Source: Brucella haematophila (GTDB lineage: Bacteria > Pseudomonadota > Alphaproteobacteria > Rhizobiales > Rhizobiaceae). Taken from it: a DNA stretch of 64,000 nt. How positions within the stretch are numbered: the first letter of the stretch is position 1; every line of letters starts with the position of its first letter. This document shows, in pieces, positions 34,416 to 45,818 of this stretch. Made by a program: the position numbers and the translations under genes. The notes beneath the pieces are model-generated. The model made no database searches, was not told the origin of the DNA, and worked only from the letters and a program-made list of their open reading frames with translations. The stretch lies in contig NZ_VCPE01000002.1 of the NCBI RefSeq assembly GCF_005938105.1, forward strand, positions 248,001 through 312,000, in the 5' to 3' direction.

Positions 34416-34772
34416 ATGAACTTCAAGACCCGTATGGCTATGCTCGGCTTTGCAGCAACCAGCCTTCTCGCTGTCAGTGCAATCGAAGCCTCGGCACAGC
34501 AATGCGGCGGTGCCTCCTGGTACGCCCTGACCTCCCGCACGGCATCGGGTGAACGTATGAACCCAGCCGGATTGACCGCAGCGCACCGCTCCCTGCCGCT
34601 TGGCAGCAAGGTCAAAGTTACCAATCAGAGAAATGGCAAGTCGCTCGTCGTGCGCATCAACGACCGCGGCCCGTTCATCAAAGGACGCGTGCTGGATCTC
34701 TCCAAGGGTGCTGCAAGCCGTCTCGGCTTCATTGGCGCCGGACACACCAAGGTCTGCTTCACGCCGATGTAA
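34416..34772 (+). CDS. RlpA-like double-psi beta-barrel secreted protein
   Basis: The 118-residue protein has a signal peptide ([20 protein letters not shown], cleavage about ASA-QQ). A DPBB domain follows: [60 protein letters not shown] and AASRLGF. RlpA proteins bind or cleave denuded peptidoglycan; this is a minimal version without SPOR domain. The catalytic-type Asp in NDRGPF is present. It is convergent with the ATP-grasp gene, with a shared inverted repeat at the end. Confidence 0.88.
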
Positions 34773-34796: not shown

Positions 34797-34839
34797 AATA
34801 AAGTGATAGCGGCCCGGATTGGACCGCTATCACTTTATT
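34797..34839. terminator. Bidirectional terminator between the RlpA-like and ATP-grasp genes
   Basis: Perfect 16-bp arms AATAAAGTGATAGCGG/CCGCTATCACTTTATT have an 11-base loop. It ends the plus-strand gene and includes the stop-codon region of the minus-strand ATP-grasp gene. Confidence 0.85.
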
Positions 34840-36295
34840 TGCGATCCAGCCGGTCGGTGAACCACCTGGTCAGGTTGATCCAGACGTCATCCTTTTCCGC
34901 CGCATCTTCGATGCCGTGTTCGAGATTGGGATTGTCGTTGACTTCGATCACCACGACACCGTCATCGGTTTCCTTCAGATCGACACCGTATAAGCCATTG
35001 CCGATGCACCGCGCGGCGCGCAGGCCTGTTTCCAGAACCGCTTGCGGGGCCTCTGCCAGCGTGTAGGTGCGAAAGCCGCCCTCAAGCGGTTTGCCGCCGG
35101 TATCGTGCTTCACAATCTGCCAGTGGTTTTTCGCCATCATATACTGGCAGATGAAAAGCGGTTTGCCGTCGAGAACGCCGACGCGCCAATCGAAGCGGGT
35201 CGGCATATATTTCTGCGCCAGCAACAGATCGCTATCCTGAAGCCACAGCATCGCCAGCGCCTTCAGCTCACCCAGATCACTCACCTTCTTCACGCCGCGC
35301 GAGAAAGAGGAATCCGGGATCTTGATGACCAGCGGAAAGCCAAGCAGATCGGCAGCTCGCTCCAGATCCTCCTCACCCGCAATCATCACGGTCTGAGGCA
35401 CCGCCACATCATTGGCCTGCATCAGCTCGTGCAGATAGACCTTGTTGGTGCAGCGGATCATCGAAATCGGATCGTCGATGACCGGCATGTTTTCCTGCTG
35501 CGCCCGGCGCGCAAAGCGATAGGTGTGATTGGAAATCGACGTGGTTTCGCGGATGAACAGCGCATCGTAATTGGCAAGACGCGAGAGGTCCTTCTTGCCG
35601 ATTGGTTCGACCTCGACACCAAGTCGCGCCGCAATCTTCGCCCAGTGCTTCAGGGACGCCATGGATGATGGCGGCATCGCCTCTTTCGGATCGCAGAGCG
35701 TCGCCACGGAATAACGGGCCGGAACTTTGGGCTTGGCCGCCCGCCATTCGCGCTGGGTATAGCGGTCGAGCGCATCTTCAAAGCGCTCCTTTTGATGTTT
35801 CGAGAATTTTGAAATATTGGAGAAGCCGATTTTCTGGATACGCGCCCACTCACCCGGCTTGATCGTCACTTCCAGCGACGGCGCGCGGAACCAATCGAAC
35901 AAAAGCCTGCCGAAACGCTCGAATTCCGGGTTTTCAGCCAGACCGAAATGGACGTGAATGGTTTCAGGCGCTTTTTCCGGATGCTTGCCCAGCGCCTTGT
36001 TGAGCATGTCTTCCAGTTCGGGGATGGCATTCTCATAGAGCCGACGCTCGGAAAGGTCGATCATCGTCTCGACGGACGGAACGATCCGGTGGCCGCGCGC
36101 TTCCGCCAGAAGCGAGGCATAATAGCCGCGGCTCTGATAGGCATAGGTGCGCGACAGGTTGATGATGCGCGGGCGCTGCTGGCCGTTGAACAGCGCCGGA
36201 TGTGCGAGATAGTCACGATTGGTCATGACCTTGTGCGGTGTGGCGCCATTATCGATATCCGAGAGGCGCCCAACGAGAATGACGCAGATCGTCAT
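34835..36295 (-). CDS. RimK-like ATP-grasp ligase with N-terminal RLAN domain
   Basis: The 486-residue protein has an N-terminal RLAN-type region (about residues 1-180; INLSRTYAYQSRGYYASLLA, EARGHRIVPSV). A middle part ANYDALFIRETTSISNHTYR leads into an ATP-grasp domain: VIDDPISMIRCTNKVYLHEL, ATP-binding Lys325 in LVIKIPDSSFSRGV, and metal ligands around Glu451-Asn455 in VVIEVNDNPNLEH. ATP-grasp ligases of the RimK group make amide bonds to amino acids or peptides; the substrate here is unknown. ATG 36295 overlaps the stop of the GNAT/C39 gene (ATGA); the in-frame start at 36433 is rejected. Confidence 0.92.
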   Translation of the reverse strand: MTICVILVGRLSDIDNGATPHKVMTNRDYLAHPALFNGQQRPRIINLSRTYAYQSRGYYASLLAEARGHRIVPSVETMIDLSERRLYENAIPELEDMLNKALGKHPEKAPETIHVHFGLAENPEFERFGRLLFDWFRAPSLEVTIKPGEWARIQKIGFSNISKFSKHQKERFEDALDRYTQREWRAAKPKVPARYSVATLCDPKEAMPPSSMASLKHWAKIAARLGVEVEPIGKKDLSRLANYDALFIRETTSISNHTYRFARRAQQENMPVIDDPISMIRCTNKVYLHELMQANDVAVPQTVMIAGEEDLERAADLLGFPLVIKIPDSSFSRGVKKVSDLGELKALAMLWLQDSDLLLAQKYMPTRFDWRVGVLDGKPLFICQYMMAKNHWQIVKHDTGGKPLEGGFRTYTLAEAPQAVLETGLRAARCIGNGLYGVDLKETDDGVVVIEVNDNPNLEHGIEDAAEKDDVWINLTRWFTDRLDRK

Positions 36296-37401
36296 CAGTC
36301 TGTCCCTTTTTCGAGAATCACTGCTGCCCTGAGCCCATCGCTGCCGAAACGGGCGATGCGGTCGAAGATGTGGAATGGAACCGGCACATTGGCCGCATCG
36401 GCGATGCTTTCGCCCTGTTCCTCTTCCACCCATGGATCATGAATAAAAATGTGACGGCCATCCTCGCCATGGGCGAGCACCCAATGCGGCACTTTGTTGC
36501 CGAACATAAGATAGCCGCTGATCAGAACGATCACCGACGCGCCACGCCGGAGCGCGGTGACGATGTCGAACAAGGTGAAGCCACGATAATCCACCGGGAT
36601 ACCATAGGCTTCCGTGCGCTGGCGAAAATCGGTTTGCGCAAGTTGCATCACCCGGCGCTTTTTCTCCGAACGCACCGATTGCAGAAACAGCATGTCCTCA
36701 ATGGAAACGATGATGGACGCTTTCAATCCGTGTTCATAGCCCGCGACGGCAAGGCCGAAAGGTTCGCAGCCGCCTGGTCCGGACATCATGTAAATCGTGG
36801 TCGCGTCACGCCACAGGCGCACTTCCAGCACCGGATCGAGTTGCACCACCGGCTTGTGATAGGCGAGCGCCATCATCAGACAGGCCGCCCCGCAGGTGAA
36901 GTCGGTCGTCTGCCGGTAATAGGGGAATGTCGTGATCGGCGGAACGCCTCCGCGCACCGTCTTTTCGAAGCGCAGGGCGTCGGAATGATCGGCATAATAG
37001 TCGAGATAGCGCCCGATTGGGCGATAACCATTGCGCTTATAAAGCGCGATGGCCCGTGCATTGTCCTCGCGCACTTCGAGCCGCAACAGCGGCCGGTCGT
37101 GCTCATAGGCCGCCGTTTCAGCAGCCTGCAACAGAAGCCCGCCTATTCCCTTGGCGCTCGCATCCGGATCGACGGCGATCGAATAGAGCCGCGCCATCGC
37201 CGTACCGTGCCGGAAAAGGATCATCGCATAGCCGATGATGTGGCCATCGACTTCCGCAATAATCGTTTCAGCCGTGGGGCGCGCGATCAAGGCGCGGAAG
37301 GAGCGTCGGGAAATGCGGTCTGCTTCGAAGCAGCGCTCTTCGATGCGTAACAACGCATCAATGTCGTCTGCCGTGGCCTTGCGCGTGGTTGCGCTTGTCA
37401 T
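36295..37401 (-). CDS. Fusion of GNAT acetyltransferase and C39-like peptidase
   Basis: The 368-residue protein combines a GNAT domain (residues 1-150; LYSIAVDPDASAKGIGGLLL is the acetyl-CoA loop, LEVREDNARAIALYKRNGY) with a papain-fold C39-like peptidase (152-365). The catalytic Cys170 is in TTDFTCGAACLM, His306 in VPHWVLAHGE and Asp322 in FIHDPW. All three candidate catalytic residues are intact. The start at 37401 (MTSATTRKATADD) is chosen over 37449. It is coupled to the ATP-grasp gene by overlap, which suggests one pathway or complex. I recall this pair as widely conserved but without a proven product. Confidence 0.9.
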   Translation of the reverse strand: MTSATTRKATADDIDALLRIEERCFEADRISRRSFRALIARPTAETIIAEVDGHIIGYAMILFRHGTAMARLYSIAVDPDASAKGIGGLLLQAAETAAYEHDRPLLRLEVREDNARAIALYKRNGYRPIGRYLDYYADHSDALRFEKTVRGGVPPITTFPYYRQTTDFTCGAACLMMALAYHKPVVQLDPVLEVRLWRDATTIYMMSGPGGCEPFGLAVAGYEHGLKASIIVSIEDMLFLQSVRSEKKRRVMQLAQTDFRQRTEAYGIPVDYRGFTLFDIVTALRRGASVIVLISGYLMFGNKVPHWVLAHGEDGRHIFIHDPWVEEEQGESIADAANVPVPFHIFDRIARFGSDGLRAAVILEKGTD

Positions 37402-37691
37402 CCCGTGGCCTTTGCAAATGGACCTCAAAGGTCCCGTGGAATGTGCCAACCATTGGCATATTCGCTGGCAAAAACAAGCTCCCCGAGCATGGCAAAATTA
37501 TGAGTGGCAACTGGGCATCCTCACGGTCTGAAAAACACAATAAATTCAATCTATAGTTGCACAATTGCGCAATACCCGCGTTAACCATTAATTAAGATGT
37601 TGGGCGATGAAGCGGCAAATCGAATTGACTCCGGAGTGTTTCAGATTTTAACGTTTCGTTAATAAACGAGTATCCGGCAAGGGCGTTGAGT

Positions 37692-38315
37692 ATGTTTTGC
37701 GTTGTTCGCTCGACCAAGAAAATTATGGCAGCAGCTGCTTTCGCGGCTTCGGTGCTGATGACAGGCTTTGGTGCTGAAGCAGCCTCTGGCGACTTCATGC
37801 ATACCGGGAAAGTCACTTCCCAGCCGATAGGCCATTACGAGTTCTGCAAGCGCGAAGCGCAGGAATGCAATATCGTAAGCCGGGACACCAGCCCGTTGCA
37901 GCTTGACCATGCCAACTGGCAGCGCATTGTCGACGTCAATCTCTCGGTCAATGAACGCATCAAGCCGATGACCGATATGGAAATCTACGGCGTCGAGGAA
38001 TATTGGACTTACCCAACCACCGTTGGCGATTGCGAAGACTATGTGCTTCTCAAGCAGCGCGAGCTGCAAAAGGCCGGTATTCCGATCAGCGACCTTCTGA
38101 TCACCGTCTTGCGCAAGCCGGATGGCGAAGGCCATGCCGTCCTGACCGTCCGCACCGATCGCGGCGACTTCGTCCTCGACAATCTGACTGATGAAGTGCT
38201 GCGCTGGAACGAAACCGATTACACCTATCTGAAGCGTCAGGCCACGAACAATACCGGCCGCTGGGTCACCATCGAATCCCCGGACAACCTGCTGGTCGGC
38301 TCGGTTCGTCACTAA
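37692..38315 (+). CDS. Periplasmic transglutaminase-like cysteine protease (BTLCP family)
   Basis: The 207-residue protein has a signal peptide (about residues 1-31, cleavage after GAEA). Family parts are DVNLSVNERIKPMTDMEIYG, the Cys motif TVGDCEDYVLLKQRELQ, the His motif GEGHAVLTVRTDRGDFVLDN with its Asp, and the end WVTIESPDNLLVGSV. Members of this family (LapG-like) are periplasmic proteases that can cleave surface adhesins; the target here is unknown. The start at 37692 follows an in-frame TTG at 37686. It is divergent from the GNAT/C39 gene. Confidence 0.9.
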   Translation: MFCVVRSTKKIMAAAAFAASVLMTGFGAEAASGDFMHTGKVTSQPIGHYEFCKREAQECNIVSRDTSPLQLDHANWQRIVDVNLSVNERIKPMTDMEIYGVEEYWTYPTTVGDCEDYVLLKQRELQKAGIPISDLLITVLRKPDGEGHAVLTVRTDRGDFVLDNLTDEVLRWNETDYTYLKRQATNNTGRWVTIESPDNLLVGSVRH

Positions 38316-44659: not shown

Positions 44660-45598
44660 TTATCGCTTTGCTTCCACCGCATCCCAGAACAGCGCAGCAA
44701 TATTGGTGCCGTCGAAACGTTCAATCTCGCGGATGCCCGTTGGCGACGTGACGTTGATCTCAGTCATATAATCGCCGATGACATCGATGCCGACCAGAAT
44801 GAAGCCGCGTTCCCGCAAGGACGGTCCGATGCGTTCGCAGATTTCGCGTTCGCGCGGTGTCAGCTTGCTCTGTTCAGCCTTGCCGCCAGCATGCATGTTG
44901 GAGCGGGCGTCGGTTTCCGATGGCACGCGGTTGATCGCACCCACCGGCTCGCCGTCGATCAGAATGATGCGCTTGTCGCCTGCGCGCACATCTTTCAGAT
45001 AACGCTGGGCAATGAACGGCTCGCGGAAGAGCTGGCCGAACATTTCGAGCAGCGATGAGAGATTGCGATCGCCATCGGCCAGATGGAACACGCCCGCGCC
45101 GCCATTGCCGTAAAGCGGCTTCAGGATGATGTCGCCGAACTCCCGACGGAAATCCATGACTTCCTGTGGGTCCTTGGTGATGAGCGTTTCCGGCATCAGA
45201 TCGGGAAACTCGGTGACAAAAATCTTTTCGGGGCTGTTGCGCACCCAGGCCGGATCGTTGACGACCAGCGTCTTTGGATGAATGCGCTCCAGAAGATGCG
45301 TGGTGGTGATGTAATTCATGTCGAAAGGCGGGTCCTGACGCAGCAGCACCACATCCATTTCCGACATGTCGCGGCGGATAGGTTCGCCCAGTGTGAAATG
45401 GTCGCCCACAATGTCGCGCACGTCCAGCTTTTCGAGACGGGCCGAAACGACGCCATCGCGCATCGACAGGCGGTCAGGCGTATAGTGATACAGCTCGTGG
45501 CCGCGCTTCTGCGCCTCCAGCGAAAGCGCAAATGTCGTGTCGCCCTTGATGTTGATCGTGCTGATATGGTCCATCTGGACCGCGACTTTGAGAGCCAT
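44660..45598 (-). CDS. gshB: Glutathione synthetase
   Basis: GshB joins glycine to gamma-glutamylcysteine using ATP. The 312-residue ATP-grasp enzyme starts [20 protein letters not shown] and shows [75 protein letters not shown] and the metal-site end [16 protein letters not shown]. Length is normal. ATG 45598 is chosen over 45673, which would add a non-conserved extension. Confidence 0.96.
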
Positions 45599-45818
45599 GA
45601 TTTCCTCGCGATTCGAAGTTGCGGGAAATCTAAAACGGAATGAACCGGCGATATAGTGCCTTTCTGCCGTCAAAACGCCGCCGTTCCTGCCTTTCAGGCA
45701 CTTTCGGCCCGACGGAGAAACACAAAAAAGTGTTTGCTATGGGGCCTCACTTCCAAAGCACGCGGCCCACCCCATATGATGGATCACAAATAGATCCCCC
45801 TAGATTCAAGGGAACCCC

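Follow-up and report, generated by a model that had tools for sequence, protein, structure and literature searches.

An RLAN ATP-grasp ligase linked to a GNAT acetyltransferase, with an optional C39-like domain, in Brucella haematophila and other Pseudomonadota

The gene pair in the window

What could be made by two adjoining genes of which one encodes an acetyltransferase fused to a peptidase-like domain and the other an amide-forming ligase? The question is raised by a stretch of 64,000 nucleotides from Brucella haematophila (contig NZ_VCPE01000002.1, positions 248,001 to 312,000 of the forward strand), hereafter the window, in which a GNAT-DUF3335 fusion, P0002, precedes an RLAN/ATP-grasp ligase, P0001, in the reading direction on the minus strand. 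A first-pass annotation of the window had proposed that the ligase extends an acyl or peptide substrate, the acetyltransferase caps it and the protease trims or releases it. The answer favoured here, to which we would give about an even chance, is cytoplasmic synthesis of a small N-acetylated peptide by the pair, with the C39-like domain as an optional hydrolase. The features concerned are as follows.

34835..36295, minus strand: P0001, RLAN/RimK-like ATP-grasp ligase (486 amino acids plus stop)
35771..36217, minus strand: RLAN domain of P0001, residues 27-175 (PF14401, 147 bits; N46 and the G57-Y58 to R67 motif conserved)
34841..35713, minus strand: ATP-grasp half of P0001, residues 195-485 (LysX/ArgX/RimK fold; K325, E451, N453 and N455 invariant)
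36295..37401, minus strand: P0002, fusion of GNAT and DUF3335 (C39-like) (368 amino acids plus stop)
36952..37395, minus strand: GNAT domain of P0002, residues 3-150 (RimI/Ard1-like fold; E109, Y135 and Y136 conserved)
36313..36927, minus strand: DUF3335 C39-like peptidase domain of P0002, residues 159-363 (Q164, C170, H306, D322)
36295..36295, minus strand: one-base stop/start overlap of P0002 and P0001, TGATG, read from the sequence

Both proteins were assigned using Pfam, P0001 as RLAN (PF14401, 147 bits against a cut-off of 25) with a RimK-like ATP-grasp domain, and P0002 as GNAT with DUF3335 (PF11814, 268.4 bits against a cut-off of 25). The genes had been described as overlapping by the four bases ATGA; the overlap itself is real, but the stop codon of P0002 (36297-36295) and the start codon of P0001 (36295-36293) have a single base in common, within TGATG. 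RLAN and GNAT-DUF3335 are already named families, the fusion having been noted in a 2023 review that cites Iyer et al. 2009 (PMC10318531, excerpt); the split into a core and an optional part, the minimal viral pair and an alternative GCS2/FGase operon were measured here.

Genomes and loci surveyed

Presence was surveyed in 397 sampled Pseudomonadota genomes, with the overlap of RLAN and DUF3335 counted by hand; none of 14 control genomes, E. coli among them, gave an RLAN match. Locus set A consisted of 80 fetched stretches, 75 of them with RLAN (69 of the 84 survey matches, near-duplicates being left out, and six relatives from a genus search), giving 76 RLAN loci with the window; locus set B consisted of the 80 best-matching of at least 586 relatives and is weighted towards the window's own kin. 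The resulting 156 RLAN loci are not independent, some set B records being duplicates of set A genomes (L153 is L061 and L184 is L070), and exclude 20 loci of family f102 and three plasmid loci. Gene calling in the fetched loci relied on a simple script, and GNATs were identified with profiles built from proteins of the fetched stretches; GNATs at 60 bits or less were left uncounted, and distances were measured between stop-to-stop frames. The ligase tree, calculated by a quick method and containing several long branches, has 155 rows, L212 being left out with its ligase in two frames. The assemblies G001, G006, L236 and L212 each have a gene of the set broken into pieces.

The ligase and the acetyltransferase form one conserved unit

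RLAN is present in 81 of the 397 genomes and DUF3335 in 63, and a possibly common metabolite or modification may therefore hide here. The first-pass annotation had named rare co-occurrence of the two genes elsewhere as an outcome that would refute its proposal; this is excluded, since 62 of the 63 DUF3335 genomes also carry RLAN, while 19 of the 81 RLAN genomes are without DUF3335. At the level of loci, a GNAT of the P0002 type is fused to RLAN or lies less than 300 base pairs (bp) from it in 152/156 (73/76 in set A and 79/80 in set B), and at 1386 bp in L113 and 1081 bp in L211. The claim that ligase and acetyltransferase form one conserved unit is thus upheld, with GNAT in 154 of the 156 loci and the two joined in one protein in L069, L071 and L072; in L138, GNAT, C39 and RLAN all occupy a single frame. 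The linkage is far above chance expectation. RLAN stands without an adjoining GNAT in L099, whose genome has a GNAT-C39 gene on a separate contig (L100), and in L119. When the f102 loci (GNAT in 1/20) and the plasmid loci (1/3, L221) are added, the count becomes 156/179. Gene orientation is co-directional in the window's relatives and divergent elsewhere, for example in the Pseudomonas loci L214, L215 and L218. Other loci with an acetyltransferase fusion are L163 (Mesorhizobium ciceri WSM1271) and L210 (Azospirillum brasilense), and L192 (Maricaulis parjimensis) has a stand-alone GNAT.

Among the best 80 relatives, the closest is that of Ochrobactrum teleogrylli, with a ligase 97% identical to P0001. 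Within the window's genus the ligase is patchy, being whole in 12 of 24 genomes (this one included), in pieces in two of low quality and absent from ten. Two records titled as Acidobacteria, L200 and L216 (Sulfopaludibacter in L216), have ligases that cluster closely with Hyphomonas in the tree and are perhaps misbinned contigs.

The C39-like domain is an optional part

The GNAT nearest to RLAN carries a C39 domain in 97/156 loci and is without it in 57/156. A separate GNAT-C39 gene lies at most 1.5 kilobases (kb) away in four of these 57 (L069, L071, L072 and L112), so that 53/156 loci have a GNAT and no C39 domain within the fetched stretch; some genomes with a C39-free locus carry GNAT-C39 elsewhere, as in G045 and G097. 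When mapped on the ligase tree, the presence of C39 in the locus requires 20 changes, at least 15 of them forced by well-supported branches, and scoring by the nearest GNAT alone gives 22 changes, 17 of them forced. Because C39 is missing from 53/156 loci and has changed repeatedly on the tree, GNAT and ligase are taken as the stable core of these loci. The trimming or release step that the first-pass annotation had assigned to the protease does not survive these counts, and a protease as a required step is likewise ruled out by the RLAN genomes that are without DUF3335 (19/81). The split reduces a three-enzyme guess to a two-enzyme assay. L130 and L131 hold additional DUF3335 copies whose GNAT part is weak, and their fetched stretches contain no RLAN.

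Conserved residues and predicted folds

P0001 combines an RLAN domain above the gathering score with a fused ATP-grasp half in which K325, E451, N453 and N455 are present, and these four residues are invariant in all 77 RLAN proteins aligned. P0002 combines DUF3335 above its cut-off, with a Cys-His-Asp/Glu triad, and a fused GNAT. Across 50 C39 domains, Q164, C170 and H306 are kept in every one, and position 322 holds Asp in 42 and Glu in the other eight; the residues singled out by the first-pass annotation are therefore invariant as named, except for D322, which holds in part. In the GNAT domain, E109 is kept in 102/104 C39-fused and 57/57 solo forms and Y136 in 101/104 and 57/57. Both align with residues of a solved S18-alanine acetyltransferase and are counterparts of what we take to be the catalytic Glu and Tyr of RimI. 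R107 is found in 104/104 fused forms versus 41/57 solo forms, and from this alignment it is possibly tied to the presence of the C39 domain.

The fold search with the whole P0001 model listed ATP-grasp chains, the comparison thus covering the ligase half, for which LysX, ArgX and RimK are the closest folds; the search with the whole P0002 model listed GNAT chains and covers the GNAT.

Viral forms and an alternative operon

Relatives are encoded on nine viral contigs. In seven of the nine, two of which give an identical match, the match is without the RLAN domain; of the other two, one runs off the end of its contig and the second (L263) retains the first 60 of 150 RLAN positions. On four contigs (L258-L261) the GNAT frame, scoring 120, 88, 79 and 74 bits, overlaps the frame of the RLAN-less ligase, and this minimal pair consists of small proteins suited to biochemistry. 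The pair of L258 sits between tail genes and an integrase, which suggests that it belongs to a temperate phage; its ligase found no match in the annotated phage collection. A hunt for RLAN-less ligases in 185 bacterial genomes gave 44 matches, 42 with frames of at least 484 amino acids and two with short frames of 332 and 201.

In family f102, RLAN is present in 32/57 genomes, in an operon shared with a plasmid of Legionella adelaidensis. Among the 20 of these 32 loci that were fetched (L233-L252), GCS2 adjoins RLAN in 18 and FGase comes next in 17; the preceding gene is a C39_2-type peptidase in 14, and a single locus has an adjacent GNAT. This variant offers a second handle on the substrate. 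L119 is a locus of the f102 type as well, with GCS2, FGase and C39_2 genes in place of GNAT. On the Pseudomonas aeruginosa plasmid pZYPA1927 (L219), RLAN has ggt, asparaginase and amino-acid ABC transporter genes as neighbours.

Relation to known systems

Five characterised or proposed systems were compared with the pair, the papers being cited from excerpts. Ngg (TIGR03103) of the NAGGN pathway acts with AsnO and an M42 peptidase and resembles the pair in its GNAT and RimK-like ATP-grasp parts, its accompanying peptidase and its N-acetyl dipeptide chemistry (PMC8070244). It differs in being a single polypeptide, and its cut-off of 569 bits is far above the 30 bits of P0002; P0001 was unlisted at 0.001. 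In the mammalian NAAG system, the bond between an N-acetyl amino acid and an amino acid is made by a ligase of the RimK family (PMC7866086), as is proposed for the pair, and in RimABK the polyglutamylation of RpsF by RimK is undone by the protease RimB, a ligase-protease pairing as here (PMC11957791). RimABK differs in that its protease is a retropepsin rather than a papain fold and in that no GNAT is named in the excerpt (PMC11957791); P0001 reaches 26.5 bits against the RimK model NF007764, below the 331 required. LysX and ArgX, which use the carrier LysW, have the closest fold to the ligase half of P0001, but its score against TIGR02144 (LysX_arch) is 74.7 versus 275.6 bits and no LysW-like C-terminus was found in the 156 loci, using the LysW motif as we take it to be. 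The NAAG pathway relies on a separate aspartate N-acetyltransferase, NAT8L, and to our knowledge the mammalian system has no operon, RLAN or C39 domain. For R2K.3 ligases with a linked GNAT, peptide ligation followed by acyl capping was proposed in 2015 (PMC4431377); the R2K_3 Pfam model matches P0001 weakly (31.4 bits, cut-off 26.3), and P0001 additionally carries RLAN. P0002 falls narrowly below the RimI model TIGR01575 (80.1 versus 86.4 bits). The C39 peptidases of bacteriocin transporters are fused to an ABC transporter, whereas P0002 is without an ABC domain.

An N-acetylated short peptide as the candidate product

On the favoured reading, the RimI-like GNAT would acetylate an amino acid or short peptide at its alpha-amine. 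The RLAN/ATP-grasp enzyme would use ATP to activate a carboxylate as an acyl phosphate and couple it with a second amino acid through the amine of the latter, to give a product of the acetyl-X-Y type. The C39-like domain, if present, would serve as an amidase or peptidase dedicated to breaking down or recycling this product. From the two-enzyme core and its conservation, the catalytic residues, the predicted folds, the optional C39 domain and the minimal viral form, all of which are observed, we infer the small-molecule substrate, the cytoplasmic site, the order of the steps and the hydrolytic role of C39. No third gene cluster occurs in over 11 of the 81 set A stretches; an amide ligase and an alpha-amine GNAT with neither a LysW carrier in the 156 loci nor a more widespread third gene cluster fit the synthesis of an N-acetylated short peptide. 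Precedents are provided by the bacterial NAGG synthetase, which makes acetyl-Gln-Gln in the NAGGN pathway (PMC8070244, excerpt), and by the mammalian NAAG synthetase, which makes acetyl-Asp-Glu (PMC7866086, excerpt).

Several observations weigh against this reading. The GNAT fold is closest to Ard1 and RimI, which are protein N-terminal acetyltransferases. Viral contigs are an unexpected place for genes that make a solute or a storage peptide, and in a survey of jumbo phages the GNATs and R2K ATP-grasp ligases of phages are predicted to be modifiers of host proteins (PMC7824862, excerpt). The ligase can work without GNAT, because a GNAT adjoins it in just one of the 20 f102 loci, and on pZYPA1927 there is no GNAT within 8 kb of RLAN. 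A physical link to the NAGGN genes is a single case, found in G045 (L101, 12-10809), where AsnO, Ngg, an M42 peptidase and a 249-amino-acid gene without a Pfam match are followed by GNAT-C39, DUF2817 and DUF155. RLAN as a substitute for NAGGN was rejected, as the two do not exclude each other (12/37 genomes with Ngg above its cut-off have RLAN versus 7.5 expected by chance), and the window's genome has a true Ngg elsewhere (895.6 bits) in addition to the RLAN pair. No characterised product or metabolite of the pair appeared among the literature matches listed, one of the searches being for NAGGN only.

Alternative explanations

The best surviving alternative, which we consider unlikely, is that the pair modifies the ends of proteins or peptides, the RimI-like GNAT acetylating the N-terminus and the RimK/LysX-like ligase adding amino acids at the C-terminus, either of those proteins or of partners, with C39 removing the tag. 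It stays a candidate on account of the GNAT's resemblance to protein N-terminal acetyltransferases and of the pair's presence on viral contigs. Against it, neither a LysW-like carrier C-terminus in the 156 loci, nor a third gene cluster shared by over 11 of the 81 stretches, nor a likely conserved target gene among the ten largest clusters of small open reading frames (ORFs) near the pair was found, though a target may be encoded elsewhere; the GCS2/FGase variant, moreover, suggests small molecules. In a broader form, less likely still, a portable GNAT/ATP-grasp pair would block the N-terminus and extend the C-terminus of one peptide or protein, would have spread through about one fifth of the sampled Pseudomonadota with RLAN and C39 as add-ons, and would serve in its minimal form in temperate phages as a lysogenic-conversion module.

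Salvage or detoxification, in which GNAT blocks and C39 cleaves small toxic or imported peptides that the ligase rebuilds or tags, is rather improbable: the RLAN-free DUF3335 copies of L130 and L131 lie near putative oligopeptide ABC transporter ATPases (named by eye), but C39 is dispensable and no transporter family is prominent beside the core pair in the set A stretches. A further alternative is a role in the chemistry of thiols or gamma-glutamyl peptides, where C39 would be a transpeptidase like phytochelatin synthase; it draws on GCS2 beside RLAN in 18/20 f102 loci and on the fact that C39 and phytochelatin synthase are both papain-fold cysteine enzymes. We consider it improbable, as the C39 profile found no phytochelatin synthase among PDB sequences at E up to 10 (a weak test) and this genome seems to have a glutathione synthetase gene, gshB (identified by eye), which lies at 44660-45673 of the window and some 8 kb away from the pair.

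Graspetide-like maturation of a ribosomally made peptide is very improbable, for although ATP-grasp ligases, GNATs and C39 proteases all occur in clusters for ribosomally synthesised and post-translationally modified peptides (RiPPs), the ten largest small-ORF clusters near the pair come mostly from Mesorhizobium-type loci only, the window pair is flanked by gaps of just 62 and 284 bp, and P0002 has no ABC domain. A carrier or RiPP precursor beside the pair was rejected on the same small-ORF clusters and the lack of a LysW-type C-terminus. One mixed small-ORF cluster from 11 loci is antisense to RLAN in L081 and was taken as a shadow ORF by position alone.

Neighbouring genes

Two further genes flank the pair in the window.

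37686..38315, plus strand: P0003, Peptidase_C93 protein (209 amino acids)
34416..34772, plus strand: P0004, RlpA/DPBB protein (DPBB_1 match)

P0003 satisfies the Peptidase_C93 model and scores 46.1 bits against the LapG model NF045674, for which 320 are required. Its homologues were found in 7/156 loci, which belong to the genus of the window or to two records of Bartonella, and a homologue of P0004 lies beside the pair in 5/156. The C93 protease and the RlpA protein were rejected as parts of the system on account of this limited range, and look like bystanders, in agreement with the suggestion of the first-pass annotation that the periplasmic cysteine protease and the RlpA-like protein may be only neighbours. 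The span of 34835-38315 given there to the ligase, the fusion and the protease is borne out by the gene calls.

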